From: Natronorubrum halophilum
GTDB taxonomy: Archaea; Halobacteriota; Halobacteria; Halobacteriales; Natrialbaceae
Direction of reading: 5' to 3'
Assembly: GCF_003670115.1 (NCBI RefSeq)
Contig: NZ_QQTY01000001.1
Coordinates: 62,001 to 126,000, forward strand
DNA: 64,000 nucleotides
The stretch's first letter is position 1, and every line of letters starts with the position of its first letter. Positions 6,978 through 57,914 of the stretch are shown one piece after another. Under the pieces are notes generated by a model. It made no database searches. It saw only the letters and a list, made by a program, of their open reading frames with translations, and was not told the origin of the DNA. The translations under genes were made by a program, and so were the position numbers.

Positions 6978-8081
6978 TTACGGCTCCTCCTCGTCAGCCG
7001 CCGGTTCGGGCGTTAGCTCGCCGCTGTCGACCATCGCCTCGAGCGGATTGTCGTCGATCTCGAGCGGGAAATCGACGCGGCCGCGGCGGCGGACGGACTC
7101 GTAGCCGCCGAACAGGATCTCGGCCGTATTGAGTCCGATCCGGCCGCTGAGCTTGGGTTCGGTTCCCGACTCGAGACACTCGAGTACGTGGTCGATCGCC
7201 CGGTCGTGGAACCGCGAGCCGAACCGATCTCGTTCGGTCCCCGTTCGGTGCATCGTCTCGCCGTCGACGTCGAGTTGCTCCGTCGAGCCGCCTCGTCGCA
7301 ACTCGAGCATCGGGCCGTCGTCGACGGCGATCCGGATCTGGCCGTCGGTCCCGCGGAGCAGGATGGCCGCCCCGACCATCTCGCTCCCCGTGCCGGTGGA
7401 CACCACGCCGTAAACGCCGTTGTCGTACCTCCACTGGGCCCACATCTGGTTCTCCTGGTGGGAGCCGAATCGCTGATCCTCCTCGCGGTAGTCCAGTTGG
7501 GCGATAACCCATTCTGCGGACCGATCGCCGGCAAACATTCCCGCGAGATCGACCGTGTGTGCGCCCGTGTCGTAGAAGTCCCCCCAGCCGATCTCGATGC
7601 GCTCGAGGTCGCCGATCTCGCCGTCCTCGAGGAGTTTCCTGGCGTCGACGAACGGGCGGCCGAATCGACGTTGCCGGTTGAACGTCAGTTGAACGTCTTT
7701 GCGCCAGCACGACTGGACCAGCCGCTTTGCGCTCGCCCACGTGTGTGCCATCGGCTTCTCGCAGTGGATAGCGTCGACGACGCCGCTGCGGGCACACCCG
7801 ACGACGATCTCTTCGTGAATCGCCGGCGGGACCGCCACGCTGACGACATCCGGTTCGACCGTCGCGAGCAGTTCGCGGTAGTCCTCGAAGACGCGTTCGG
7901 CTGCAATGTCGAACTCGTCCGCGAAGGCTGCGCCGTTCTCCGGGACGACGTCGGCACAGGCCACGAGCCGGCAGCGATCGTGGTTTCGGTACGCCTCCGC
8001 GTGTCGGTACCCCATCGCGAACCCGTCGAGCGTCGGAGTATCCGGATCCGGTCCGGTGCCGACGATAGCGACATCGTACAT
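6978..8081 (-). CDS. Gfo/Idh/MocA family oxidoreductase
   Basis: A 367-residue NAD(P)-dependent sugar or polyol dehydrogenase. The Rossmann start (VAIVGTG, 4-10) is followed by an unusual proline/aspartate-rich insertion before the first helix. The family EKP motif lies at 108-110 with the usual ...CEKPMAHT context. It is six bases downstream of the TIM-barrel gene and certainly in its operon. Such pairs usually oxidise or epimerise cyclic polyols or rare sugars. It lacks the N-terminal features of the xylose dehydrogenase at 40.8 kb, so a different substrate is likely. Confidence 0.85.
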   Translation of the reverse strand: MYDVAIVGTGPDPDTPTLDGFAMGYRHAEAYRNHDRCRLVACADVVPENGAAFADEFDIAAERVFEDYRELLATVEPDVVSVAVPPAIHEEIVVGCARSGVVDAIHCEKPMAHTWASAKRLVQSCWRKDVQLTFNRQRRFGRPFVDARKLLEDGEIGDLERIEIGWGDFYDTGAHTVDLAGMFAGDRSAEWVIAQLDYREEDQRFGSHQENQMWAQWRYDNGVYGVVSTGTGSEMVGAAILLRGTDGQIRIAVDDGPMLELRRGGSTEQLDVDGETMHRTGTERDRFGSRFHDRAIDHVLECLESGTEPKLSGRIGLNTAEILFGGYESVRRRGRVDFPLEIDDNPLEAMVDSGELTPEPAADEEEP

Positions 8082-8087
8082 CGATGA

Positions 8088-8825
8088 TCACCTGAACGAA
8101 TCGAGGACGGCCGCGCCGTGCTCGAGCGATTCGCGCGGGTTCGTCGGCTCGTCGTGTTCGTACACGTACCACTCGACATCCGCGGCTTGAGCCGCGTCCA
8201 GGCACGCCTCGAGGTCGACGTCTCCCTCGTCGAGTTCGGCGGGCGACATCGTCTCCGTATCGACGTCGGCGAAGTGAACGAGCGAGATTCGGTCGCCGTA
8301 GCGCTCGAGGAGCGCGACCGGATCGAGGCCGCCGGCGACCGCCCAGCCGAGATCGAGTTCGAACCCGAGACCGTCATCGGATTCGTCGAGGAGTTCCTCC
8401 ATCGCCGTGCGGTCGCCGCAGTCGACGAACTCGTGGTCGTGGTTGTGGTAGTGGAGGTCGAACCCGCGGTCGGCGACGGTGCCAGCCATCGTGGACAGCC
8501 GTTCTGCTGTGGACCGCACCGCCTCCGACGACTCGAAGTGCGTCTCGTCGAGGTACGGAACGACGAGCGTGTCACAGCCGAGTCGATCGTACGTCGAGAG
8601 GGTTTCCTCGAGCGATTCCTCCAGGTCCTCGAGGCCGACGTGTGCGCTGGCCGCGGCGAGACCGGCCCGCTCGAGGGTGGTCGCGACGGTGTCGATATCG
8701 GCGTCTCGGACGCGGTGAGCGAACTCGACGCCGTCGAACGACGTCGTCGCAACGTTCTCCAGTATCCGTGGGAGCGGGTCGTCGATCCCGCGAAGCGTGT
8801 AGAGTTGGATGGCCGTCTGTGGCAT
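8088..8825 (-). CDS. Sugar phosphate isomerase/epimerase family TIM barrel (xylose isomerase-like)
   Basis: A 245-residue AP-endonuclease-2-type TIM barrel. Likely metal ligands are E94 (YLDETHF), H129/D130 (YHNHDHEF) and an acid near E156-D158 (FELDLGW), with H184 further on. The family includes tagatose epimerases, inosose dehydratases and hydroxypyruvate isomerases, so the exact reaction is open. The ATG at 8825 was chosen because a TATA box lies 27-33 bases upstream and the protein begins normally (MPQTAIQLYT). First gene of a two-gene unit with the Gfo/Idh/MocA enzyme. Confidence 0.83.
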   Translation of the reverse strand: MPQTAIQLYTLRGIDDPLPRILENVATTSFDGVEFAHRVRDADIDTVATTLERAGLAAASAHVGLEDLEESLEETLSTYDRLGCDTLVVPYLDETHFESSEAVRSTAERLSTMAGTVADRGFDLHYHNHDHEFVDCGDRTAMEELLDESDDGLGFELDLGWAVAGGLDPVALLERYGDRISLVHFADVDTETMSPAELDEGDVDLEACLDAAQAADVEWYVYEHDEPTNPRESLEHGAAVLDSFR

Positions 8826-8851
8826 ACGATAACAATTTGACGGGTGCCACG

Positions 8852-8858
8852 TATATAG
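8852..8858 (-). promoter_or_regulatory. TATA box of the isomerase/dehydrogenase operon
   Basis: Read on the minus strand the box is CTATATA, about 30 bases before the ATG at 8825, which implies a leaderless transcript. Confidence 0.6.
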
Positions 8859-9493
8859 ATGGTGTAACCGGGGATTGTGGCTGGGTCGCCGATCCGCATC
8901 CGTCGACCCGGTCCGGACGAGACGGATCGCGGATTCGGGTTTAATCATAGAGAACGCAGTGGGTGCGCTACGAGTCGTGGCTTCACTGTGCGAACCGAAT
9001 CGACCGGTGATTCGAACCGGAGGCGTCCGACGTCAGTACGGCCTTGGTTTACAACCATATGATCGTAAATATCTGCCGAAGTTGCACCTCGAGCGCTGGA
9101 ACTCGATTTCGACTAGCGACACCGATCGCGCGATCCTATTACCCCTATTTGTCACCCGCGGGAGCTAGAAAAGCCGATGACATGATCGACACACTGCTGT
9201 TTCCCTCCCGATCGGCGGACGCCGTTCTATCCTGTCCTCGTGGCACTAGTACCGATGATAGGCGCTCTTTAATTTCTCTCGAGCGGATCTACTCGATACG
9301 AGTAATACTGTCGCAGCAGTGGCAAACGATCGTGAACTGATCGTGCGTATTAGTCACAAACACTCGCGAAAGTATCGGAGCAGAACGACAGGTACCGAGT
9401 CCTAGCCGAAAGAATCGTAATTCAGTAACGGTGGTGTCGAACGGGCAGTCGACGCCGGTAGTACTGTCTTTGAACTGAGAGTACCACTGAAAC

Positions 9494-9509
9494 CTCCGTT
9501 TAGACGGAG
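9494..9509. repeat. Inverted repeat, 6-base arms
   Basis: CTCCGT and ACGGAG are separated by TTAG, giving a simple hairpin. It lies about 210 bases beyond the stop of the GH4 gene and may contribute to transcript termination. Confidence 0.5.
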
Positions 9510-9523
9510 AAATATCGCGTGAG

Positions 9524-9539
9524 GCTGACGATCGTCAGC
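9524..9539. repeat. Perfect 16-base palindrome
   Basis: GCTGACGATCGTCAGC reads the same on both strands. It is about 180 bases downstream of the GH4 stop codon. It could be a regulator binding site or part of a terminator; no second copy was noticed. Confidence 0.5.
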
Positions 9540-9716
9540 TTCGGACTCGAGCAGCGTCGAGTCCGTCGAGACGGTGCGTAACCGTCTCGGCCCGAACTCT
9601 CCGGTTCGCCACCGGTGTCGATACCGTCGGCTGTCCGCCTCGTTCCGTTCGTTCGCCGCGAGCGTGGCGCTTTCGCACACTTTCGGAGTGCGACGATCGG
9701 ACTCCGCGTGCCACGT

Positions 9717-11051
9717 TCAGGCGAGTTCGGGCAGGTACTCGTCGTTCGCCTCGAGCAAGTCGTCGACCATGTCGTCGGTCGCCTCGAGCGTGCACACCGC
9801 AGCCGTCAGCGGGTCGAGTTTGACGGCCTGTCGAAGCGCAGTCTCGTCGCGCTCGACGGCGGCGGCGACGGCGAGCGACTGGACGTTGACGTTCGAGCGG
9901 TTGGGGGCTGCGAGTTGGGGCGGGAGGTCGCCCACGGAACAGGGATGGACGCCCGTTCCGTCGACGTGACACGGAACTTCGACCAGCGCGTCGTCGGGAA
10001 GGTTCGTGATAAGTCGCCCGTCGTTCGGAACGTTGAGGTTCAGCCGTCGGGGCTCGTCGGTTTCGAGGGAGTGGACGATCCGTGCGGCGTACTCGCCGGA
10101 TCGCGAGAGCGAGGTGTCCATCGTCTCGGGATCGAACTGGTCGGCGTGATCGATCGTCCGCCACTGGTCGAAGTACTCGCCCGTCGGGAGCCAGCAGACG
10201 GGGGAGTACTCGAACTCCTCCCGGTCCGGATCGTAGGCGCTGGCGTCGACGAGCCGGTCGATTTCGTCCTGACTGTGACGGAAGTACGGCAGGTACTCGC
10301 TCAGGTGGTGGCTCGACTCCGTGATAAACCGGCCGAAGTGGTCCATCGTCTCGAAGCGGACGACGTCCCGGGCGTAGATGTCCGGGTCCGTCATCGCCGC
10401 CCTGAGATCGGGATACAGGTCCCGCCCCTCGTGTTCTAACTCGAGGAACCACGCCATGTGGTTGATGCCGGCGACCCAGTACTCGAGTTCCTCGACGGGG
10501 ACGTCGACGTAGCTCGCGATGTCGTGGGCCGTCGCGACGATGCTGTGACAGATGCCGTAGACGTCGATCTCGGTCTCGGCCTCGAGCGCCCAACAGACCA
10601 TCGCCATCGGGTTCGTGTGCTGGAGCAACGGGGCGTCAGGGCACAGTTCCTCCATGTCGCGGGCGATGTCGAGCATCGTCGGAATCGTCCGCGTGGCGCG
10701 GAAGACGCCGCCGGGACCGAGGGTGTCCCCGACCGACTGTTTGACGCCGTAGCGTCGCGGAATCTCGATCTCGTTTTCGACCGGTTCGACGCCGCCGACG
10801 TGGATCGTCGTGATCACGTAATCCGCGTCCTCGAGCGCGGCCCGCCGGTCGGTCGTCGCTTCGACCGTCGCGGAAAGGTCGTGGTCGTCGACCAGGAACC
10901 GTGTCGCGGCTTCGATCCGCCCGAGGCGGTCGCCGTCGATATCCATCAGACACAGCGTCGAGTCCTGTAAGGCCGGGAACGAGAGGACGTCGCGGACCAG
11001 CGTCTGCGTGAACGTGTGACTCCCCGCGCCGATAAACGCGATTTTCACCAT
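9717..11051 (-). CDS. Glycoside hydrolase family 4, alpha-galactosidase (MelA) type
   Basis: A 444-residue GH4 enzyme, which uses NAD and a divalent metal to cleave glycosides by a redox-assisted elimination. Visible are the dinucleotide motif GAGS (8-11), D109 in GDTLGPGG, N147 in HTNPM, the metal site C168-H169-S170, and H198 in GINHMAWF. A CHS tripeptide is typical of MelA-like alpha-galactosidases, in contrast to the CHE enzyme at 25.1 kb. It lies downstream of GH127 and GH2 in the same direction, so it probably removes alpha-galactosyl caps in the cytoplasm. It may also be transcribed from its own promoter. Confidence 0.87.
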   Translation of the reverse strand: MVKIAFIGAGSHTFTQTLVRDVLSFPALQDSTLCLMDIDGDRLGRIEAATRFLVDDHDLSATVEATTDRRAALEDADYVITTIHVGGVEPVENEIEIPRRYGVKQSVGDTLGPGGVFRATRTIPTMLDIARDMEELCPDAPLLQHTNPMAMVCWALEAETEIDVYGICHSIVATAHDIASYVDVPVEELEYWVAGINHMAWFLELEHEGRDLYPDLRAAMTDPDIYARDVVRFETMDHFGRFITESSHHLSEYLPYFRHSQDEIDRLVDASAYDPDREEFEYSPVCWLPTGEYFDQWRTIDHADQFDPETMDTSLSRSGEYAARIVHSLETDEPRRLNLNVPNDGRLITNLPDDALVEVPCHVDGTGVHPCSVGDLPPQLAAPNRSNVNVQSLAVAAAVERDETALRQAVKLDPLTAAVCTLEATDDMVDDLLEANDEYLPELA

Positions 11052-21245: not shown

Positions 21246-22019
21246 TCAGAACGCGCTGTCGGCGAACCCGCCGTCGACGGTGAGCACCTCGCCGGTGACG
21301 AACGAGGACGCGTCGCTCGAGAGGTAGATCGCGGCCCCGATCAGTTCCTCGCGCTCGCCGACGCGCCCGAGCGGCGTTCGCTCGTCGATTCGATCCCGCT
21401 TGTCGGTGCCCTCGGCGTAGGTGTCCGCGTTCTGTGGCGTGATGAAAAAGCCGGGGGCGATCGCGTTGACCCGGATCTCGGGGGCGAGTTCCTTGGCCGA
21501 AGCGCGGGTAAACGCCTCGACACCGCCTTTGGCCGCCGAGTACGCCGGCAGATTCGACATCGACAGTCGCGCCGCGAGCGAGGAGATGTTGATGATACTT
21601 CCGCCCGCGTCCATCGCGGGTGCGAACGCCTGAGTCACGCGACGCACGCCGTCGAGTGCGACGTCGGTGACGAAATCCCAGTCGTCGTCTCCGATTCCGA
21701 GAACGGTCTCCCGAGAGATCGCTCCCTGCGAGGCGACGACGACGTCGATTCCGCCGAACGTCTCCTCGGCGACCGCCCGGACCCGATCGAGCGATTCCCG
21801 ATCGGTGACGTCGCAGGTGACTCGAGCCGTCTCAGCGCCGCGCTCCTCGAGGAGGGTTGCGGTTTCCGCGACCGCATCGTCGCTTCTGCTCGTCGCGATA
21901 ACGTCCGCTCCGTCGGCCGCGAAGCCGAGCGCGATCGCTTGCCCGAGGCCGCTGGTCCCGCCGATAACGATCGCACGCTTGTCCGCGACGGTCACTGGAG
22001 TGTGGGAATAGTCGTCCAT
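21246..22019 (-). CDS. Short-chain dehydrogenase/reductase
   Basis: A 257-residue classical SDR. The cofactor motif GGTSGLGQ lies at about 19-26, the NIS.S catalytic serine region at about 148-152 and Y-x3-K in AYSAAKGG. The C-terminal TVDGGF is typical of 3-ketoacyl reductase-like and gluconate/KduD-like enzymes. In this setting it could oxidise a sugar (for example arabinose) or act as a mannonate or deoxygluconate oxidoreductase; sequence alone does not decide. It is divergent from the GH51 gene with 135 bases between the starts. A very long frame continues upstream, but the ATG at 22019 gives the normal SDR N-terminus. Confidence 0.87.
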   Translation of the reverse strand: MDDYSHTPVTVADKRAIVIGGTSGLGQAIALGFAADGADVIATSRSDDAVAETATLLEERGAETARVTCDVTDRESLDRVRAVAEETFGGIDVVVASQGAISRETVLGIGDDDWDFVTDVALDGVRRVTQAFAPAMDAGGSIINISSLAARLSMSNLPAYSAAKGGVEAFTRASAKELAPEIRVNAIAPGFFITPQNADTYAEGTDKRDRIDERTPLGRVGEREELIGAAIYLSSDASSFVTGEVLTVDGGFADSAF

Positions 22020-25109: not shown

Positions 25110-26564
25110 ATGGCTCAAGCGATTCACTCGAGCACAGCGGTCGATCCGAACGACATCACGATCGCGTACCTCGGCGGTGGAAGCCGGCAGTGGGCGCCGA
25201 ACCTCATCCAGGACCTCGCGCAGTCGGACCTCGACGGACGGGTACGGCTCTACGACGAGTACTACGAGAGCGCGGAACGGAACGCGCGATTCGGGAACTG
25301 GGTGCAAGAGCGGGAGGGCGCGGTTGCCGACTGGTCGTACGAGGCGACGGGTTCGCTCGAGACGGCGCTCGCCGGCGCGGACGTCGTCATCCTGTCGACC
25401 CAGTACGATCCGGCGGAGACGTTCGTCCACGACCTCGACGTTCCCGAACGGTACGGCATCTACGGCGCCGTCGCGGCGACCATCGGACCCGGCGGCATCT
25501 TCCGTGCGATGCGGACGGTCCCGCTCTACCGCACGTTCGCCGCCGCGATCCGCGAGCACTGTCCCGACGCCTGGGTGTTCAACTACACGAATCCCGTCCA
25601 CTTCGTGACGCGAGCGCTGTACGACGAGTACCCCGACATCAACGCGCTCGGCCTGTGTCACGAGGTACTCGGTACCCGCCACCGCCTCGCGCGCTACGCT
25701 CGGGAGCACCTCGACATGGACGCGGAGCGGAGCGACGTCTCGGTTAACGTCAAGGGGATCAACCACTTCACGTGGGTCGACGAGGCGCGCTGCAAGGGCG
25801 TCGATCTCTGGCCGGTGCTCGAGGAACTCCGCGACGGCGCGGAGGGCCACCGGACGTTCACGACCGAGGACCTCGCCGACGAGAACGTGTTCGTCGACAA
25901 CTGGCAGGTGACCTGGGAGCTGTTCCGCCGGTTCGGCGTCCTCCCCGCCGCGGGCGACCGCCACCTCGTCGAGTACGCGACCTGGTTCATCCGGGACGGC
26001 AAGGAGGGACTCAACCGCTGGGGCGTCAAGCGTACCGGAAGCGACTACCGGGCCAAACACTGGACGCCCGCCGAGTCGGACCAGACGACCGACGTCGAGG
26101 CGTGGCTGACCGGCGAGCGCGAGTTCGAACTGAGCGAGTCGAACGAGGTCTTCGTCGACATTCTCGCGGCGCTCGCGGGGCGGGACGACTACGTGACCAA
26201 CGTCAACCTGCCGAACACGGGCCAAGTATCGGACCTCCAGAACGACGCGGTCGTCGAGACGAACGCGCTCGTCCGGGCGAACGAGGTCAAGCCGATGGCG
26301 GCCGGCGGCTTCCCGCGTCCCGTTCGTAGCGTCATCCGCGGACACATCGACACCATCGAGACGGTCATCGAGGCCTCCGCCGACAGCGACGTCGACGACG
26401 CGTTCCAGGGATTCCTCATCGACCAGCAGATCCGCACCCTTCAGACCGAGGACGCCCGCGAGCTGTTCGCGGAACTCGTCGCCGCGGAGGAATCGTACTT
26501 ACAGGACTGGGATCTCGAGGACTCGGCCGTTCTCGAGGAAGCTGACGCCTACCCCGTCGAGTAA
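25110..26564 (+). CDS. Glycoside hydrolase family 4, CHE-motif subgroup (alpha-glucuronidase/galacturonidase candidate)
   Basis: A 484-residue GH4 enzyme dependent on NAD and a divalent metal. The dinucleotide motif is GGGS (22-25), N161 sits in NYTNPVHF, the metal site is C183-H184-E185 and H219 is in GINHFTW. A CHE tripeptide is associated with alpha-glucuronidase or alpha-galacturonidase members rather than with MelA (CHS) or phospho-glycosidases (CN.P, CD.P). Released glucuronate would feed uxaC and uxuA encoded nearby, and no GH67 or GH115 gene is present. No signal peptide. The assignment within the family is inferred from this motif and the neighbourhood. Confidence 0.8.
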   Translation: MAQAIHSSTAVDPNDITIAYLGGGSRQWAPNLIQDLAQSDLDGRVRLYDEYYESAERNARFGNWVQEREGAVADWSYEATGSLETALAGADVVILSTQYDPAETFVHDLDVPERYGIYGAVAATIGPGGIFRAMRTVPLYRTFAAAIREHCPDAWVFNYTNPVHFVTRALYDEYPDINALGLCHEVLGTRHRLARYAREHLDMDAERSDVSVNVKGINHFTWVDEARCKGVDLWPVLEELRDGAEGHRTFTTEDLADENVFVDNWQVTWELFRRFGVLPAAGDRHLVEYATWFIRDGKEGLNRWGVKRTGSDYRAKHWTPAESDQTTDVEAWLTGEREFELSESNEVFVDILAALAGRDDYVTNVNLPNTGQVSDLQNDAVVETNALVRANEVKPMAAGGFPRPVRSVIRGHIDTIETVIEASADSDVDDAFQGFLIDQQIRTLQTEDARELFAELVAAEESYLQDWDLEDSAVLEEADAYPVE

Positions 26565-28921: not shown

Positions 28922-29695
28922 TCAGTTGTGGACGTACTTCACCTCGACGATGTTGGCCGCGTTCCGGAGCAGCGGAACGGCGGTCTCCTCGATCCAGGCG
29001 TCGTTGATCCGATTTTTCGGCCCGGAGATGGAGAGCGCGCCGATCACGTCGTCGTCGTCGGTGACGATGGGAACGCCGACCGACCGAATTCCTACACGAC
29101 GTTCCTCGTTCTCTATCGAGTACCCCCGGCCTCGGATCTGCTCGAGCTCCGCCCGCAGCGTCTCGACGTCCGTGATCGTCCGATCGGTTTGTGCTTCGAG
29201 GCCGTACTCGTCGACGATCGCCTCGAGCTCCGCCCGCGAGTAGCGCGAGAGCAGCGCTTTCCCCAGCGCGCTCCAGTGCATGTTCGTGTACTCGCCCGTC
29301 GGCGCGTTGTCGTAGATGGCGTTGTTACCCTCGGACTTGTAGATGAGCACCCGCTGTCCGTCCTCTTCGATCCCGAGCGACGCGACCTCGTTCGTCTCCC
29401 TGGCGAGCCTGTCGACCTCCGGCCGCGCCACGTCGTAGACGTCGACCGACTGTCGAACGCGGCCGCCCTGCTGGAGAAATCGCAGGCTGAGCTCGTACCG
29501 GTCGCCGACGCGTCTGACGTATCCCGTCTCAATCAGGGTCTGGAGATAGGTGTGGGTCGTACTCGCCGAGAGACCGACCGCCGTCGAAACGTCCGTCAGC
29601 CGCGCTCCCTCGAGTCCGACCAGCGTTTCGATGATCTCGAAGCCTCGCTCGAGTGACTTGATCGTCCGGCCATCGCTCGTGTTGTGAGTTCCCAT
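28922..29695 (-). CDS. IclR-family transcription regulator
   Basis: A 257-residue regulator with an N-terminal winged helix-turn-helix (about 15-65: TDVSTAVGLSASTTHTYLQ) and a C-terminal IclR effector domain (about 80-255) ending in LLRNAANIVE. IclR proteins bind sugar-acid or aromatic metabolites; in Haloferax the family member XacR activates pentose genes. This copy lies between the fused Opp permease and the uronate genes, so control of either is plausible. Start ATG 29695 was chosen because a TATA box lies 21-28 bases upstream; a longer frame upstream is unlikely to be used. Confidence 0.88.
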   Translation of the reverse strand: MGTHNTSDGRTIKSLERGFEIIETLVGLEGARLTDVSTAVGLSASTTHTYLQTLIETGYVRRVGDRYELSLRFLQQGGRVRQSVDVYDVARPEVDRLARETNEVASLGIEEDGQRVLIYKSEGNNAIYDNAPTGEYTNMHWSALGKALLSRYSRAELEAIVDEYGLEAQTDRTITDVETLRAELEQIRGRGYSIENEERRVGIRSVGVPIVTDDDDVIGALSISGPKNRINDAWIEETAVPLLRNAANIVEVKYVHN

Positions 29696-30525: not shown

Positions 30526-31887
30526 TCAGAACCCGTACAGCTCGTTCGGCCGCTCGTAGGCGAGCCGTTCGACGAGATCCTGCGCCACGTCCATCGGCAC
30601 CTGCCCGCGCTCGACCTGCTTGCCGACGACGTTCGCGAGCGATCGACGGAACATCTCGAAGCGCGAGCCGTAGGAGAGCAACTTCCGCGAGTCGCTGACC
30701 ATCCCGGCGTGCTGGGAGAGCAGTTCCACCGTGCCGACGTACTCGAGTTGCTGTTCCACGCCGAAGGGACTGTCGTTGAACCACCAGGCGGGGCCGACGG
30801 TGACGTGCGGGAAGACGCGAGCCATCGTCGCGACCGTCGGGTAGTGGGTGGGATCGATCGCGTAGAGCACGATCTCGGTTTCGCCGTCGAACTCGTTGAC
30901 GAAGTGCTCGAGCGAGCCGGCGAGCTCGACATTCTGGGTGGAGATGTCGCCGCCGGCGGGTCCCAGCCGCTCGAACAGCTCGTCGCGGTAGTTGCGCACG
31001 GGGCCGAGGTGGAGCTGTGTGACCCAGTCCTTCTCGGCGTTCAACTCGCCCACGAACTCGAAGAGGAACGCCTGGAAGTCGCCGACCGCGCGTTCGGAGA
31101 GCGAGCCACCCGCGATCCGCCGTCGGAACACCTCCCGCGCGCGTCGCTCGCTGACGGGCCGGGAGACGGGCTGTTCGATGCCCAGGTCGCTGGCTCGGCA
31201 GCCGCGCTCGTCGAAGTAGTCGTGAGTCGCCGCGAGCGCCTCGCAGAACCCGTCGAACGCGTCGGTCTCGATTCCGGTCGCGGCCTCGAGGTCGTCGACG
31301 AAGGTGGTCCACTCGAGTCGGTCGATCTTCACGGCCCGATCGGCGCGCCACGTCGGAACGATATCGACGCCGGGCACCTCGTCGGCGGCGCGCTCGTGGT
31401 ATGCGAGGTCGTCCGTCGGGTCGTCGGTGCTGCCGACGACGTCGACGTTCATCGCTTCCAAGAGCTGTTGCGGCCGCATCGACTCGTCGGCGATCTGCGC
31501 GCTCGTTTCCGCCCAGATCTCGTCCGCCGTCTCCGCCGAGATCCGTTTCTCGATGCCGAATCGACGCCGTAGATCCAGGTGGACCCACTCGTAGGTCGGG
31601 TTGCCCGCGAACTGCGGGAAGACCTCCGCGAGCGCGGTCCACTTCTCGCGGTTCGACGCGTCGCCGGTAATCAGCTCCTCGTCGACGCCGCAGTCGCGCA
31701 TCAGGGCCCAGACGTAGTGATCGGTCGCCGCTTCGACCTCCCAGACGTCGTCCCAGCCGTCGTTCTCGACGATCTCCGCGACGTCCGCGTGAGTGTGCGG
31801 ATCGACGATCGGCAGGTCCGCGATCGTGTCGTACAGCTCTCGTGCGGCGTCCGTCTCGAGCAGGTAGTCCTCACCGAGGAAGCTCAT
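30526..31887 (-). CDS. uxaC: Uronate (glucuronate) isomerase
   Basis: A 453-residue UxaC protein of the amidohydrolase-like superfamily; the Escherichia coli enzyme is about 470 residues. H31 and H33 in IVDPHTHAD form the metal-binding pair, and W-W-F-N-D and R-K/S segments of the family follow in the C-terminal half. It converts D-glucuronate to D-fructuronate (or galacturonate to tagaturonate) in the cytoplasm, the entry to the hexuronate route to 2-keto-3-deoxygluconate. Start ATG 31887 is supported by a TATA box 29 bases upstream; a longer upstream frame is arginine/alanine-rich and unlike the family. Confidence 0.93.
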   Translation of the reverse strand: MSFLGEDYLLETDAARELYDTIADLPIVDPHTHADVAEIVENDGWDDVWEVEAATDHYVWALMRDCGVDEELITGDASNREKWTALAEVFPQFAGNPTYEWVHLDLRRRFGIEKRISAETADEIWAETSAQIADESMRPQQLLEAMNVDVVGSTDDPTDDLAYHERAADEVPGVDIVPTWRADRAVKIDRLEWTTFVDDLEAATGIETDAFDGFCEALAATHDYFDERGCRASDLGIEQPVSRPVSERRAREVFRRRIAGGSLSERAVGDFQAFLFEFVGELNAEKDWVTQLHLGPVRNYRDELFERLGPAGGDISTQNVELAGSLEHFVNEFDGETEIVLYAIDPTHYPTVATMARVFPHVTVGPAWWFNDSPFGVEQQLEYVGTVELLSQHAGMVSDSRKLLSYGSRFEMFRRSLANVVGKQVERGQVPMDVAQDLVERLAYERPNELYGF

Positions 31888-31910
31888 GGCCGTAGCGTTC
31901 CCAGCGAATC

Positions 31911-31919
31911 GAGTTAAAC
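31911..31919 (-). promoter_or_regulatory. TATA box of uxaC
   Basis: TTTAACTC on the minus strand, about 29 bases before ATG 31887. The same TTTAACTCG string occurs at the same distance from uxuA. Confidence 0.55.
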
Positions 31920-32010
31920 CTACGGGTGCGAGTCCCGAGACCCGCGCGGCGTCGCGCCGCGCGAGGTGAGCGACGGAGCATACCGGACTCGAGGCGGCGA
32001 AAACGCTCAC

Positions 32011-32018
32011 CTATTTAC
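32011..32018 (+). promoter_or_regulatory. TATA-like box of the LLM oxidoreductase gene
   Basis: CTATTTAC is about 28 bases before ATG 32043. Confidence 0.5.
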
Positions 32019-32042
32019 TGCAGCCCTCCCAAGGGTGCGTCG

Positions 32043-33122
32043 ATGAGTAGATCCGATTTGAGCGACCTCACCTTCGGATGTCAGGTCGTCGCGTACGGCG
32101 ACGTTCCCGGAACGATCGAACAGGCAAAGCGCGTCGAGGAGGCGGGGTTCGACCTCGTTACGCTCCCCGATCACCTCTTCCACCCGACAGGCTCCGAAGA
32201 GTTCCTCGTCGAACCGCCGTGGGAGGTCTTTAGCGTCCTCGGCGCGATCGCACAGCACACCGATCGAGCGACCCTGATGCCGGGGGTCACCGACTCGGTG
32301 CGACGCCATCCGACCGAACTCGCACACGCTACCGCGACGCTCGATCGGATGACCGACGGGCGCGCGGGGCTCGGAATCGGCGCCGGCGAGGCGTTCAACT
32401 TCGTCCCGATCGAGGACGTCGACTGGGACGACCCGTTCACGCGGTTCGTCGAGGCGGTGAAGATCGTCGACGGCCTCTGGAACTCCACCCCCGACGAGCG
32501 CTTCTCGTTCGACGGCGACCTCTTCCGACTCGAGGACGCTCACATGGGCCTGAAGCCGGTCCAGGAGCCCCGGCCGCCGCTGTGGGTCGGCGGCTACGGA
32601 CGGAGCATGCGCGGGTTCGCCGGTGCGGTCGCCGACGGCTGGTTCCCCTGGATCCACTCGCCCGAGCAGTACGCCGCGGATCTCGACCGCGTGGTCTCGG
32701 TCGCCGAGGACAGGGGTCGCGATCCCGACGCGATCGATCGCGCGGTGATGGTGCCCACGACGGTCACCGAGGACGCGGACGAGGCTCGAGCGATCGGGAT
32801 CGAGCGCAACCGAACGAGCCTGGCGTTCCGACCGCCGCTGCTGGCCGACATGGGGTACGAGGAGATCGCCGAGGAGACGCCGATCATGTGGGAGATGGCC
32901 TTCGACGAGAAACAGGAGCGGCAGTTGCTGGCGGCCGCGGAACGAATTCCGGACGCGGCCGTCGACGAAGTGACGATCTCCGGCGACCCCGAGCGGGCGA
33001 TCGAGCGCATCGAGGCGTTCGTCGACGCCGGCGTCGACAATCTGGTGCTCATCCCCGTCGGCGACTTCGAGGAGACGATGCGCCACTACGAGGAGACGAT
33101 CATCCCGCACTTCCGGGAGTAG
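32043..33122 (+). CDS. LLM-class flavin oxidoreductase (F420- or FMN-dependent)
   Basis: A 359-residue luciferase-like TIM-barrel protein. The N-terminal strand-loop (FGCQVVAYGD), DLVTLPDHLF, the GLGIGAGEAFN loop and the GGYGR segment before a C-terminal helix region are typical of F420-dependent LLM enzymes. Haloarchaea make F420. The family includes F420-dependent glucose-6-phosphate and other sugar or alcohol dehydrogenases. The gene sits between uxaC and uxuA, where a fructuronate reductase would be expected, so a uronate-pathway role is possible but inferred. Start ATG 32043 is set by the TATA spacing and family N-terminus. Confidence 0.85.
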   Translation: MSRSDLSDLTFGCQVVAYGDVPGTIEQAKRVEEAGFDLVTLPDHLFHPTGSEEFLVEPPWEVFSVLGAIAQHTDRATLMPGVTDSVRRHPTELAHATATLDRMTDGRAGLGIGAGEAFNFVPIEDVDWDDPFTRFVEAVKIVDGLWNSTPDERFSFDGDLFRLEDAHMGLKPVQEPRPPLWVGGYGRSMRGFAGAVADGWFPWIHSPEQYAADLDRVVSVAEDRGRDPDAIDRAVMVPTTVTEDADEARAIGIERNRTSLAFRPPLLADMGYEEIAEETPIMWEMAFDEKQERQLLAAAERIPDAAVDEVTISGDPERAIERIEAFVDAGVDNLVLIPVGDFEETMRHYEETIIPHFRE

Positions 33123-33146
33123 GTGCCGCCGTTTTTCCGAGTCGCC

Positions 33147-34205
33147 TCACTCGCCGCGCGGTTCGCTGACGCGACCGCGAAGCATGCCGCGAAGGTAGCC
33201 GACGGTAAAGGCGCGTCCGCGGTGTTCCCAGTCGGTGTCGTTCTCGAGGTGGGGCGTGTGGTCGGGGATCATGATCCCGTCGAAGCCGACCTGATCGAGC
33301 AGCGCGAGCAGCCCGTACTCGTCGTAGTTGCCCTCGTCGACGAACGTCTCGTTGAACTTCGGCACGGTCCCCTCGACGTCGCGGAAGTGAACGTAGAAGA
33401 TCTCGCCCCGTTCGCCGAAGTAGCGGATCACCTCCTCGAGATCCTCGCCCATCTGCGACCAGCAGCCGAGACAGAGATCGAGCCCGTGGTTGTCACTCGG
33501 CACGAGGTCCATCGCGCGCTTGAAGTTCTCGAAGTTCCGGAACAGCTGCGGAACGCCACCGAGGCGCTCCATCGGCGGGTCGTTGGGATGGAGGCAGAGA
33601 TCGATCCCAGCTTCCTCGGCGACCGGGACGACCTCCTCGAGGAAGTACTCGTAGTTCTCCCAGAGCACCTCCCCGGTGTACTCGCGGTCGTGGGTGTACC
33701 CGTCGTCGAGCTCGTCGGCGTCGAACGCGGAGACCGTGGCGCCGCCCCGAACCGTCTCGGAGCCGGTCCGCCACACGCCCGCGGGCGCCCAGTGGTAACC
33801 GAAGCTCGGAATCCCCGCTTCGCCCATGTTCCGGATCGTCCGCTTGAGTTTTCCGAGCTGTTCGTCGCGCTTCGGGCCGTTCAGCATGACGTCCTCGTAG
33901 AACGAAATCGGAACGTTTTCGATGGCGTTGAGGCGGATCCCCGCCGCTTCGACGCGCTCGCGGAGTGCGATCAGATTCTCGACCGACCACTCGCCGTCGC
34001 CCTCGAGAGGCATCCGCTCGTTATCGGGCATGTGCTCGTAGTCGGGGTCGTACTGGTACATGTTCAGGAGTACGTCGTCGACTCCGAGTTGCTTGATGTA
34101 GCGGAGTCGCTTCTCGCTCGGGTCCATGAACTGACCGAGACCGACTCGCATCGGCAGGTCGTCGAACTCGTTCGATAGGGCGTCGCTGCTAGTCTCGAGA
34201 GACAT
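33147..34205 (-). CDS. uxuA: Mannonate dehydratase
   Basis: A 352-residue UxuA protein, a TIM barrel that dehydrates D-mannonate to 2-keto-3-deoxygluconate using a divalent metal. The four ligand positions known in the family are present: H206 (CLHPNDPP), C245 (GLDLCLG), H273 (FYVHFRD) and D315 (IPDHTP). It is convergent with the LLM oxidoreductase gene (24 bases apart) and divergent from the GH10 xylanase. Start ATG 34205 is supported by a TATA box 29 bases upstream. Together with uxaC it forms a two-enzyme part of the glucuronate pathway; the intervening reductase is not obvious. Confidence 0.93.
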   Translation of the reverse strand: MSLETSSDALSNEFDDLPMRVGLGQFMDPSEKRLRYIKQLGVDDVLLNMYQYDPDYEHMPDNERMPLEGDGEWSVENLIALRERVEAAGIRLNAIENVPISFYEDVMLNGPKRDEQLGKLKRTIRNMGEAGIPSFGYHWAPAGVWRTGSETVRGGATVSAFDADELDDGYTHDREYTGEVLWENYEYFLEEVVPVAEEAGIDLCLHPNDPPMERLGGVPQLFRNFENFKRAMDLVPSDNHGLDLCLGCWSQMGEDLEEVIRYFGERGEIFYVHFRDVEGTVPKFNETFVDEGNYDEYGLLALLDQVGFDGIMIPDHTPHLENDTDWEHRGRAFTVGYLRGMLRGRVSEPRGE

Positions 34206-34228
34206 TACACGCACACACTCCCCCACCC

Positions 34229-34238: not shown

Positions 34239-34508
34239 TTGTTCGAAGCGCCCGATCCCGGGGGCCGCCGCTCACACCGTGACGTTCCCCTTCGAGTCTC
34301 AGATCGCCGTCACCATATAACGAAGATCGCCGTTCGAACGGGATAGTCGTCCTCGTCGGTGTCCAGCCGCGAACATCGCTCGCCGAGCGAACAGTCGCTG
34401 TCGATCGGTCGTCATAGCACCTCGTTTGGGTACCGCTATACGATCCTTGTGTCGCCGCCGTCGCCGGTGCTATGGACACGGACCGGATCGACTGCCGCGA
34501 CCCGACGC

Positions 34509-34514
34509 TTTATG
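34509..34514 (+). promoter_or_regulatory. TATA box of the GH10 xylanase gene
   Basis: TTTATG is about 28 bases before ATG 34539. Confidence 0.5.
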
Positions 34515-34538
34515 TGCGCTGCCGGCGCTGTTCGACCA

Positions 34539-35531
34539 ATGTCAACCGAGCAAGGCCAGCCGACGCTTCGAGACGTCGCCGACGAGCGCGAGTTCACCAT
34601 CGGGGCCGCGATCGATCCTGATTCGCTCCGGCGCGATCCGAGTTACTGGAAGACGGCCTCGAGCGAATTCAACGCCGTCACGCCCGAGAACGCCCTGAAG
34701 ATGGGGGCGCTGCGACCGTCGCGACACACCTACGACTTCAGGGACGCCGACGCGATCGTCGACTTCGGGCGCGAGAACGATATGTACGTCCGCGGGCACA
34801 CCCTCGTGTGGCACAACCAGAAACCCGACTGGTTCCAAGCGTGGGACCACACCGACGAACAAATCGAGGCGTTCCTCCGCAATCACATTCACACCGTCGC
34901 CGGCCGCTACCGGGCGACGATCGACGCCTGGGACGTCGTCAACGAGGCCGTCGACGACGACGGCTCGACGCGCCGGACGGTCTGGTCCGACGCGATGGGC
35001 GAGGGATACATCGCGGACGCGTTCAGGTGGGCCGACGAGGTCACCGACGCCGACCTCTACTACAACGACTACGGCGCCGACGAGGTAAACGAGAAGTCCG
35101 ACGCCATCTACGACCTCCTCGAGAGGCTGCTTGAGCGGGACGTGCCGATCGACGGCGTCGGATTCCAGCTCCACGCGCTGGCCGCCCACCCGGACCCCGA
35201 GTCGATCGCCGAAAACATCGAGCGCTTCCGGGCGCTCGGACTCGACGTGCAGATCACCGAGATGGACGTCGCGTTCCCCGACGACGACGTGCCGGCGGAC
35301 GCCGCAGAGCGCCAGGCCGACTACTACCGCGCGGTCGTCGAGGCCTGCCTCGAGGCGGGCTGTGAGACGATCGTCACGTGGGGGGTCCACGACGGGGGCA
35401 CGTGGCTGCGCAGCTTCAAGGACTTCGGCGAGCGCTACTCCGGCGACCCGCTGCTGTTCGACGATCGATACGAACGCAAGCCGGCGTATCGCGCGGTCCG
35501 GAACGCACTCGAGAAGCACCGAGAGCGGTGA
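34539..35531 (+). CDS. Endo-1,4-beta-xylanase, glycoside hydrolase family 10 (cytoplasmic)
   Basis: A 330-residue single-domain GH10 barrel. The acid/base is E136 in DVVNEAV and the nucleophile E241 in QITEMDV; the GHTLVWHNQ motif (87-94) and N178-free YYNDYG stretch are also family features. There is no signal peptide, no twin-arginine motif and no carbohydrate-binding module, so it must act inside the cell on imported xylo- or glucuronoxylo-oligosaccharides. It is divergent from uxuA, a pairing that fits glucuronoxylan use. The ATG at 34539 gives the family start; the frame upstream is not conserved in character. Confidence 0.92.
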   Translation: MSTEQGQPTLRDVADEREFTIGAAIDPDSLRRDPSYWKTASSEFNAVTPENALKMGALRPSRHTYDFRDADAIVDFGRENDMYVRGHTLVWHNQKPDWFQAWDHTDEQIEAFLRNHIHTVAGRYRATIDAWDVVNEAVDDDGSTRRTVWSDAMGEGYIADAFRWADEVTDADLYYNDYGADEVNEKSDAIYDLLERLLERDVPIDGVGFQLHALAAHPDPESIAENIERFRALGLDVQITEMDVAFPDDDVPADAAERQADYYRAVVEACLEAGCETIVTWGVHDGGTWLRSFKDFGERYSGDPLLFDDRYERKPAYRAVRNALEKHRER

Positions 35532-35928: not shown

Positions 35929-37230
35929 TCAGATCGATTCGAACGTCCAGAGCTGGTTACCGGACCCATTCCAGTCGTACTGCTGGACGTTCGCGCCGTC
36001 ATCGGTCGACGAGCTTTCGACGTCGAGCGCCTTCTCGCTGTGGACTGGCTGGATGTGGTACTCGCCGCCACCCTGATCGTGCAAGTAGAAGCGCTGGTTG
36101 TCGCTACCGCCGTCCGAATACTGTTGGACGTTCGCGCCGTCGTCGGTCGAGCTGTTGGCGACGTCGAGCACCTTGCCACTGTTGACGTTCTCGATGCGGT
36201 ACCCGTTGCCCGTGTCCTCGACGTTCCACTGCTGGTTCGAGCCGCCGCCGTAGGAGTACTGCTGGACGTTCGCGCCGTCGTCGGTCGAGCTGTTGGCGAC
36301 GTCGAGTGCCTTCCCGCTGTTGCCGTTCTGGATGCGGTAGGTTCCGTTCTCGACCGACCCCGACGAGCCGCCGTTGTCGTCGTCGTCATCGCCCCCGCCG
36401 TCGGAGCTCCCGACGGTGACGTTGGCGCTTCCGCTGCTCTCGTATCCCTCGGTGGCCAGGATCTGGTAGTCGTGGTTGCCCATGTTCATACCGTTACTCT
36501 CCCACGCGTCGAAGTGGTTACCGGCGGTGATGGTACCGCTGCTGCGCGTGGACTGGCGAACGCTCCAGTACTGCGGGAAGGTCGCCTCCCCCTCGATGGA
36601 GGGTTTGTTTTCACGCAACGACTCGTAGATGTCGTAGGTGCCGCCGTCGCTGTTGACGGTGCCCTTGTAGTCGTGTTCGGGCCGGTAGCTGCCGTGGTTC
36701 TCGATGATGTAGTACTCGACGAGGGGATCCGTCGTCCACCCGTAGAGGCACAGGTAGGAGTTGCCGGACGGGTTGTACGAGGCTGAGTAGTCCACGCTTC
36801 TGCGCGCGCCGGTTTCCCAGCCCTTGCCGCAGACGAAGTTGCCCGTGTCGTTCCACTCGACGCTGTAGTTGCCGCCGTCTCCCAGTTCCATTGAGACCGT
36901 CCCTTCGGAGTCGGTCCAGAACGAGTAGAAGTATCCGCCGTCGTTGCCGGTCTGATTCTCGGTGACGGCGGCGGCAGCCGGGGTTGCCACGGCTCCGACG
37001 CCGAGGCCAGCGACCGCGGTGGTGGCCGCCGCTTTCATGTAGTTGCGCCGGTCCATCGAGCCCGGTCCCTCGTCGGATTCGGTCGGCTGATCGTCGTCCG
37101 CCATGAAGTCGGTCACGTTCTTCGCCACCGCGGTGAGATCGTTGCCTTTCTCCGTCGAGTCACCAGTTGCTTCGATACTGTCCAGTTCGTCCGTCGGTGC
37201 TTTCATGTCGCGTGTATCGTCGTTCGTCAT
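35929..37230 (-). CDS. Secreted endo-1,4-beta-xylanase, glycoside hydrolase family 11, with ricin-type CBM13
   Basis: A 433-residue exported enzyme. A twin-arginine signal ([11 protein letters not shown], 61-71; AAA cleavage region near 86-88) follows an unusually long acidic N-terminal extension. The GH11 jelly roll spans about 97-275, with nucleophile E172 in VEYYI and acid/base E261 in ILATEGYES. An aspartate/glycine/serine linker (276-292) leads to a ricin-type beta-trefoil (293-433) with three repeats of the K-A-L-D-V...DDGANVQQY kind; two are nearly identical at DNA level. It cuts xylan outside the cell. GH11 proteins are uncommon in archaea. A downstream start at M59 is possible. Confidence 0.92.
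36125..36168 (-). repeat. 44-base direct repeat, copy 1 (ricin-repeat coding)
   Basis: Identical over 44 bases to 36263-36306, with a period of 138 bases (46 codons). It encodes the conserved [14 protein letters not shown] segment of adjacent beta-trefoil units and indicates a recent internal duplication. Confidence 0.85.
36263..36306 (-). repeat. 44-base direct repeat, copy 2 (ricin-repeat coding)
   Basis: Second copy of the repeat at 36125-36168; a third, more diverged unit lies near 35985-36030. Confidence 0.85.
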
Positions 37231-56270: not shown

Positions 56271-57914
56271 CTATCGCCTGATCTCGTCCGGATCAATCGG
56301 TGGCGACGTATCGAACACGACGTTGTCGACCCTGAACAGCGAATTTGCGAACTCGACGCTCCAGGCCAGGTTGTTCGTCCGAATAAGTTGCGCATCGAGG
56401 CCGTCACTGGCTGCAACGACATCTTCGACGATCCGTCCGGAGGCGTCGATTCCTGCACGCGCGTGCCCGGCGTCATGGAGCACGCGAAGGTCCGTTATCG
56501 CGTCGATCGGGTCGGCACCCGCATTGCGAGCCAACGTCCGCGGAATCGACTCGAGGACGGTCGCGAACTCCTCGACTGCCAGTTGCTCGCGCCCGTCGAA
56601 CCTCGGAGCCAACTGCCGGACGGCCCGCGCCGCTTCGACCTCGGCTGCGCCGCCGCCGGGAAGCGCCACGGGGCGCTTGATCGCGGCGCGAACCGCGTTG
56701 AGTCCGCCCGTAATTCGTCGTTTCGCCTCGTCGGCGGCGCTCTCGGTGCCGCCGCGGACGACCAGCCCGACGGTCCGCGGGTCGGCGCCGTCCGGAGCCG
56801 TAACTTCCAGCCACGTCTTGTCGTTTTGCGCCTCGCGTACCCTGATCGTTCCGCGTCCGAGATCGCCGGGGCTCGCGGGTTCACCCGGCGTGACCGGTCC
56901 GCGGATCGTAGCGCCGGTCACCCGCGACAGAACGTCGATGGACGAGTCCTTGACGTTTCGGAAACACACAACGCCTCGCGCGGCCAACTGCTGGCCGATC
57001 TCGTCGGTGACATCGCCGGTAACGAAGACCGCCGTACAGTTCGAGTCGGTGACCGCCGCTGCGATCCGCTCACTCTCTGTCTCGCGGTCGCCGGACCTGT
57101 CCACGTAGTCGGTGTCGACCGTCACGGAACTGGCGCTGATCTCGCGGGGTTGTAACGAGCCGTCGACGAGGAGCACGGTTCCGTCGACGGGGAGGTCTCC
57201 TGGGATCATCGGCTCGTACGTCAGGAGCGCCCCGGGGATCACCGACGACGACGTGACGTTACCCCCCGGAATCGCTTCGATGGAAACGTACCCGATGTGA
57301 ACGCGCCCTCGCCGGGGCTCCCACGCTCGAAAGACGGCGTCGACGACGTCGTCGGTGAGTTCTTCGAGCGGCCACGCGCCGAGGCGACCGTTGGTCATCC
57401 CGCTGTGCGCGACCCGCTCGAGTCGCGAGCCGTCGAATTCGGCTCGCGTCGTCGGACGGTCAGTACTGGCCACCGGGATTCCGATCTCGTCCCAGACCTC
57501 GAGCGTCCGCTGGGCGCCGATCGAGAACCCTTCGACGACGGAGACGGGGGGAACACCCGATTCGATCAGGTCGATCCCGCTCGTCAACAGTTCACTGGCC
57601 AGTAGAACCGTCGTAGTCGACCCGTCACCGAGTGCATCTTCGTGGTCTTCCGCGAGGGCGATAAACCGGTTCGCGATCGGATGGTCCGTCTCGCCCTCGA
57701 ACTCCTCGAGAATCGCAACGCCGTTGTTGGTGACGAACGCGCGTAGCGTATCGTCTCCCATTCGGCGGACGATCATCTTGTCGGCGCCTAACGGTCCGAG
57801 CGTGCTTCGGACGAGTTCGCCCATCTCGCCGGCGGCCTGTCGTATTCCTCGTCTCGTTTCCTCCGGAGACAGCTGTTCCCAGCTGACGGCTGCAGTCTCG
57901 TTATGTGTTGCCAT
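56271..57914 (-). CDS. Thermosome (group II chaperonin) paralogue
   Basis: A 547-residue CCT/thermosome subunit. The ATP-site motifs GPLGADKM (41-48) and GDGSTTTV (about 96-103, family GDGTTT) and the PGGGAAE loop are present. Many otherwise conserved positions differ and the C-terminus lacks the usual glycine/methionine tail, so this looks like a diverged third-type subunit rather than the main ThsA/ThsB. It may form mixed rings with other subunits encoded elsewhere. Its place between parts of a sugar transporter is unusual. Confidence 0.88.
   Translation of the reverse strand: MATHNETAAVSWEQLSPEETRRGIRQAAGEMGELVRSTLGPLGADKMIVRRMGDDTLRAFVTNNGVAILEEFEGETDHPIANRFIALAEDHEDALGDGSTTTVLLASELLTSGIDLIESGVPPVSVVEGFSIGAQRTLEVWDEIGIPVASTDRPTTRAEFDGSRLERVAHSGMTNGRLGAWPLEELTDDVVDAVFRAWEPRRGRVHIGYVSIEAIPGGNVTSSSVIPGALLTYEPMIPGDLPVDGTVLLVDGSLQPREISASSVTVDTDYVDRSGDRETESERIAAAVTDSNCTAVFVTGDVTDEIGQQLAARGVVCFRNVKDSSIDVLSRVTGATIRGPVTPGEPASPGDLGRGTIRVREAQNDKTWLEVTAPDGADPRTVGLVVRGGTESAADEAKRRITGGLNAVRAAIKRPVALPGGGAAEVEAARAVRQLAPRFDGREQLAVEEFATVLESIPRTLARNAGADPIDAITDLRVLHDAGHARAGIDASGRIVEDVVAASDGLDAQLIRTNNLAWSVEFANSLFRVDNVVFDTSPPIDPDEIRR

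Follow-up and report, generated by a model that had tools for sequence, protein, structure and literature searches.

The question raised by this locus is which enzyme converts D-fructuronate to D-mannonate. The locus lies in a stretch of 64,000 nucleotides from the haloarchaeon Natronorubrum halophilum (contig NZ_QQTY01000001.1, positions 62,001 to 126,000), which is referred to here as the window. It consists of three consecutive genes: uxaC, a gene for an oxidoreductase of the LLM (luciferase-like) class, and a gene of the UxuA (mannonate dehydratase) family. An earlier note on the window had observed that the reductase needed between UxaC and UxuA was missing, and that the LLM enzyme might be a new F420-dependent mannonate oxidoreductase. 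We propose, with a probability of roughly 0.4, that the LLM protein is an F420-type hexuronate oxidoreductase and most likely the fructuronate reductase at this locus. The basis consists of the gene identities, the conserved linkage, the mutual exclusion with short-chain dehydrogenases/reductases (SDRs) linked to uxaC, and a sequence and fold nearest to F420 enzymes. In the proposed pathway UxaC would make D-fructuronate, F420H2 would give a hydride to its C5 ketone by means of the LLM enzyme to yield D-mannonate, and the UxuA-family enzyme would dehydrate the latter to 2-keto-3-deoxygluconate. The LLM enzyme would take the place of the SDR-type reductase found in other uxaC loci of haloarchaea. 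The cofactor, substrate and direction of its reaction are those that we infer, and the gene may be co-regulated with uxaC from a shared divergent promoter region.

A known mannonate oxidoreductase was sought family by family in the whole genome of the window (G000; 4.67 Mb, 99.99% complete). The long-chain polyol dehydrogenase type of UxuB (PF01232, Mannitol_dh), which the earlier note had already described as absent from the window, has no match in the complete genome, and no ortholog of the canonical SDR D-mannonate oxidoreductase (PRK08277 / NF006132) was found there at E<=1e-60. A canonical uxuB of either type elsewhere in the genome was thus looked for and not found. Both types carry out the reaction proposed here for the LLM enzyme, but with an unrelated fold and cofactor. 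The SDR type does occur in haloarchaea, in the same slot beside uxaC; in locus L045 the SDR next to uxaC reaches 361.9 bits, where the cut-off is 281. In a set of 50 genomes searched directly, SDR-UxuB of the PRK08277 type was present in none of the ten that have both uxaC and the LLM gene, nor in G054, G033 and G035, which carry the LLM gene elsewhere, and was found in 16 others (Fisher p=0.001, kinship ignored). The uxaC-linked reductase slot in haloarchaea is held by at least three distinct SDR groups (L159-L168, L182, L183), so that the step appears to have been filled anew on several occasions. A survey of haloarchaeal genomes names uxaC and uxuA genes and no reductase (PMC3102087).

An SDR encoded in the window itself had been named as the competing candidate. 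It is 8.5 kb away from uxaC and has a score of 186.2 bits with the SDR D-mannonate oxidoreductase model, but this is below the cut-off of 281. Its orthologs, 74-89% identical, are common in genomes without uxaC and adjoin genes for xylose dehydrogenase, aldehyde dehydrogenase, an FAH-family protein, GH51 and sugar ABC transporters. There is no ortholog at this level of identity in G147, G244 and G305, which contain both the LLM gene and uxaC, and the protein falls in a clade apart from the uxaC-linked group SDR-B. Its pentose contexts and the uxaC-free genomes of its orthologs therefore indicate that it probably belongs to pentose use, and a role as fructuronate reductase is very unlikely. It is a candidate for the sugar 1-dehydrogenase of an oxidative arabinose/xylose pathway.

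The LLM protein matches PF00296 with 209.3 bits over residues 14-332 (gathering score 27.9), which confirms the class given to it earlier. It belongs to no named NCBIfam F420 LLM subfamily, the best being TIGR03619 with 142.5 against a cut-off of 166.9. The closest PDB entries by sequence are Mer, Adf, the F420-dependent hydroxymycolic acid dehydrogenase and F420-dependent glucose-6-phosphate dehydrogenases (FGD); FMN monooxygenases rank below these. A structure model was of moderate confidence (mean pLDDT 64, pTM 0.68), and in a fold search with it the top seven matches were all Mer or Adf, with FGD1 also among the top matches. Mer (8qpl, 1z69) is the best match by both sequence and fold. However, its GPGDK motif is replaced by GAGEA in the LLM family and a Mer-like C1 function is for this reason disfavoured; Mer is a C1-pterin enzyme, while the LLM context is that of sugar acids. 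Adf (1rhc) and FGD/FSD (3b4y, 5lxe, 9hav) have the TIM-barrel LLM fold in common with the protein and stand in the top group of sequence and fold matches, at only about 21-26% identity. Residues His44 and Glu116, the latter in the motif GAGEAFN, are invariant in 13 LLM orthologs and align in Adf with the motifs DH and GAGEAMN (DH..HP and GAGEAxN). This His and Glu act as catalytic residues in the dehydrogenase branch. The position of the Adf tryptophan is occupied by Thr, and the LLM gene sits in uronate loci, unlike Adf and FGD. His44 and Glu116 fit the dehydrogenase branch as described in PMC6279831. The genome also encodes an F420 ligase. From these matches, the retained His and Glu and the ligase, it is likely that the protein uses F420 as its cofactor. 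The genome encodes 16 LLM proteins, so a lone LLM gene would be unremarkable and it is the conserved linkage that is notable.

Of the 342 genomes of the order, 13 contain orthologs with 72-92% identity, and the next relatives are at about 50%, so that the protein belongs to one tight haloarchaeal family. In 12 loci from three GTDB families the LLM gene lies at a distance of 94 to about 2100 bp from uxaC, and in 11 of these the two are divergent. The earlier note had named co-occurrence with uxaC and uxuA in the absence of uxuB as a check on its proposal, which this conserved linkage supports. The loci are glucuronoxylan clusters (GH10, GH11, GH67, GH3), and where a UxuA-family gene was detected it is a homolog close to that of the window. 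Most of the other loci with the LLM gene also contain a gene for glycoside hydrolase family 4 (GH4), and IclR genes are likewise found near LLM or uxaC.

A contrast appears when 51 uxaC loci, 12 linked to LLM and 39 free of it, are compared for an SDR gene within 12 kb. Such a gene is present in 31 of the 39 LLM-free loci, usually directly beside uxaC or uxuA, but in only two of the 12 LLM-linked ones (Fisher's exact p=1.5e-4, or p=1e-3 for xylan loci only; kinship ignored). These two are the pentose-type SDR of the window and an unrelated one in G305, and SDRs of the uxaC-linked types are absent from all 12. Closely related genomes repeat the pattern. Halosimplex G244 has the LLM gene and no SDR-UxuB, while in Halosimplex G302 the locus is the same except that LLM is missing (about 90 bp from uxaC to the IclR gene), and there is an SDR-UxuB elsewhere. 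The genus of G305, which carries LLM, also holds G258 and G343, with SDRs beside uxaC instead. In L048, L050, L051 and L155 an SDR-B gene occupies the place of LLM, accompanied by close UxuA and mostly close GH4 homologs. This is the pattern expected within the locus if LLM replaced an SDR at the fructuronate step.

It might be asked whether the protein is instead an FMN-dependent monooxygenase which removes the 4-O-methyl group of the 4-O-methylglucuronate of xylan, before isomerisation or oxidation. FMN monooxygenases exist among LLM enzymes, and such a role would account for linkage to both glucuronate routes as well as to xylan and uronidase genes. However, F420 hydride transferases match the protein best, FMN monooxygenases score far lower by sequence, and the Adf-like motif GAGEAFN is kept with its Glu invariant. 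Xylan loci of the GH67/GH10 type with SDRs have no LLM gene. In addition, uronate dehydrogenase (UDH) is reported to accept 4-O-methylglucuronate, no demethylation being needed (PMC7071571). We consider demethylation improbable.

Several observations weigh against fructuronate reductase as the function of the LLM protein. At least eight genomes that lack uxaC (G268, G329, G306, G174, G332 and those of L028, L029 and L036) carry this ortholog, mostly in operons with UDH or GH4, or next to UDH. In a tree of 26 LLM sequences the uxaC-linked and uxaC-free copies are interleaved in one clade. In G054, G033, G035 and G272, uxaC has an SDR-B gene nearby and the LLM gene is unlinked elsewhere. A role restricted to fructuronate fails to explain the uxaC-free copies. 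The literature gave no link between F420 and fructuronate, and no fructuronate activity of any LLM enzyme was found there. An operon of LLM with uxaC and uxuA was rejected because the strands differ, plus for LLM and minus for the other two. LLM diverges from uxaC across 155 bp and converges with uxuA, 24 bp away, so that it is not co-transcribed with either. Unlinked SDRs capable in principle of the fructuronate step occur in several LLM genomes; in G000 there is an SDR-D-like gene (C2:336140-336862) that shares 58% identity with a third SDR type linked to uxaC. Finally, the UxuA-family protein of the window does not reach either curated cut-off for mannonate dehydratase (146.6 against 191; 93.6 against 199.6).

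On the last point, the identity of the two neighbours was assessed separately. The uxaC assignment is secure, with 479 bits to PF02614 and 506.3 to the glucuronate isomerase equivalog NF002794 (cut-off 387). The gene called uxuA in the earlier note was correctly placed in its family (PF03786, 182 bits; closest PDB entry 3ban, a mannonate dehydratase), but the curated scores do not extend this to mannonate dehydratase. Shorter UxuA proteins of other haloarchaeal uxaC loci exceed the PRK03906 cut-off. Since the family-invariant residues H213, C252, H280, D322 and H323 are retained, dehydratase chemistry is likely, while mannonate as the substrate is not certain. At least three clades can be distinguished among the UxuA-family proteins of haloarchaea (window 33147-34226; L172:15347-16399; L170:634-1668). 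One clade, 45-49% identical to the window protein, is linked to genes for UDH, a DHDPS-family enzyme and aldehyde dehydrogenase, which suggests an aldarate rather than a mannonate dehydratase.

The unlinked SDRs raise the further possibility that one of them is the reductase and that the LLM protein is unrelated to the sugar step. SDR-D-like genes of 56-60% identity are found in G000, G006, G050, G057 and G147, and genes nested within SDR-B in G032, G053 and G244. However, these SDRs have no uxaC, uxuA or GH4 neighbours (within about 9 kb of the gene in G000 no uronate gene was recognised), neither kind was found in G305, and the uxaC-LLM pair is conserved across families. This explanation is therefore regarded as improbable too.

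The uxaC-free copies deserve a closer description. In Haloferax, Halogeometricum and G272, the LLM gene is the last in an apparent operon of an enolase-superfamily enzyme, a universal stress protein, in some cases a UDH-like SDR, and GH4. Copies in this type of operon are sister to a uxaC-linked copy in the 26-sequence tree. The closest PDB entry to the enolase-superfamily enzyme is 4ggb, a galactarolactone cycloisomerase, and the operon is probably an oxidative uronate pathway. It is seen at L036:4484-9901, L121:4956-9218 and L115:5796-10160. Genes for a ThuA-domain protein and a Gfo/Idh/MocA protein adjoin LLM in both uxaC-linked and uxaC-free loci (L119:9620-11591; L036:11421-15547), a pairing that resembles 3-keto-glycoside systems. 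The genes around L125, a relative with 50% identity (PAS/GAF regulator, phosphoglycerate mutase, thiolase), offered no functional hint, nor did those around the unlinked copies in L032, L035 and L038 (transposase, exchanger, hydrolases).

The uxaC-free and unlinked copies thus suggest that the family acts on several uronate-derived substrates, or on a shared substrate further upstream such as free uronate or a compound closely derived from it. In the latter case the fructuronate reductase of the LLM loci would be an unlinked SDR. The LLM enzyme could then catalyse a step common to the isomerase and oxidative routes, for example the F420-dependent C1 oxidation of glucuronate, 4-O-methylglucuronate or galacturonate. 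This would fit the presence of the same ortholog both with uxaC and in uxaC-free UDH/GH4 operons, the GH4 gene beside LLM in most loci, and the UDH homologs found in 22 of 24 genomes searched, that of the window included. F420-dependent glucose(-6-phosphate) dehydrogenases, which oxidise C1 of a hexose, are among the nearest structures. However, the absence of uxaC-linked SDRs exactly where LLM occurs would be left unexplained, the activity would be redundant with UDH, which L036 and L121 encode in that very operon, and the product would bypass UxaC and UxuA. Although it covers the uxaC-free loci, we find a role on free uronate rather unlikely.

The proposal that the LLM enzyme is an F420-dependent mannonate oxidoreductase therefore stands in part. 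It is favoured by the missing UxuB, the conserved linkage, the replacement of SDRs and the likeness to F420 enzymes, and weakened by the uxaC-free orthologs, the unlinked copies and the 58% SDR. The comparative support exceeds that of a chance neighbour, but a dedicated fructuronate reductase is an incomplete account. A broader version, which we offer tentatively, is that this may be the first F420-dependent mannonate oxidoreductase, displacing an SDR in glucuronoxylan loci, with orthologs serving an F420-linked step in uxaC-free uronate operons.

Table 1. Coordinates of the locus and of surrounding features in the window
Feature	Position	Strand	Remarks
uxaC, glucuronate (uronate) isomerase	30526-31887	-	PF02614; NF002794; closest PDB 1j5s uronate isomerase
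LLM-class oxidoreductase (luciferase-like hydride transferase), 359 aa	32043-33122	+	PF00296; candidate F420-dependent hexuronate/fructuronate oxidoreductase
UxuA-family (mannonate dehydratase-like) protein	33147-34226	-	PF03786; ATG start at 34205 gives 352 aa
Divergent intergenic region uxaC/LLM, 155 bp	31888-32042		
GH4 glycosidase	25110-26564	+	PF02056/PF11975; closest PDB 3fef LplD alpha-galacturonidase
GH10 xylanase, part of glucuronoxylan island	34359-35531	+	PF00331 334 bits
GH11 xylanase with ricin-type lectin domains	35929-37230	-	PF00457, PF14200
IclR-family regulator	28922-29653	-	PF01614
SDR (rival candidate of the earlier note)	21246-22019	-	judged not UxuB; relatives in pentose-pathway context

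The locus is surrounded by an island for glucuronoxylan and arabinan degradation (GH10, GH11 with lectin domains, GH51, GH43, GH127, GH4). Apart from these glycosidases, the island encodes ABC transporters for oligosaccharides and sugars, an aldehyde dehydrogenase, and a sugar dehydrogenase of the Gfo/Idh family that is akin to xylose dehydrogenase. On the minus strand at 6978-11051 is a row of genes for a Gfo/Idh dehydrogenase, a xylose-isomerase-like TIM barrel and a second, distant GH4 (27% identity to the first). A chaperonin (Cpn60/TCP-1) gene lies within the polysaccharide island at 56271-57914 and an aldehyde ferredoxin oxidoreductase gene at the edge of the sugar island at 2899-4752.

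Haloarchaea make F420, but substrates have been established for only a few of their F420 enzymes. The replacement pattern, with the natural contrast in Halosimplex, makes the proposed function of the LLM enzyme testable by few experiments. If it is true, F420 would take part in haloarchaeal sugar-acid catabolism and gain a catabolic place in aerobic archaea, a gap in the glucuronate pathway would be filled, and the locus would exemplify one enzyme fold taking the place of another at a given step.

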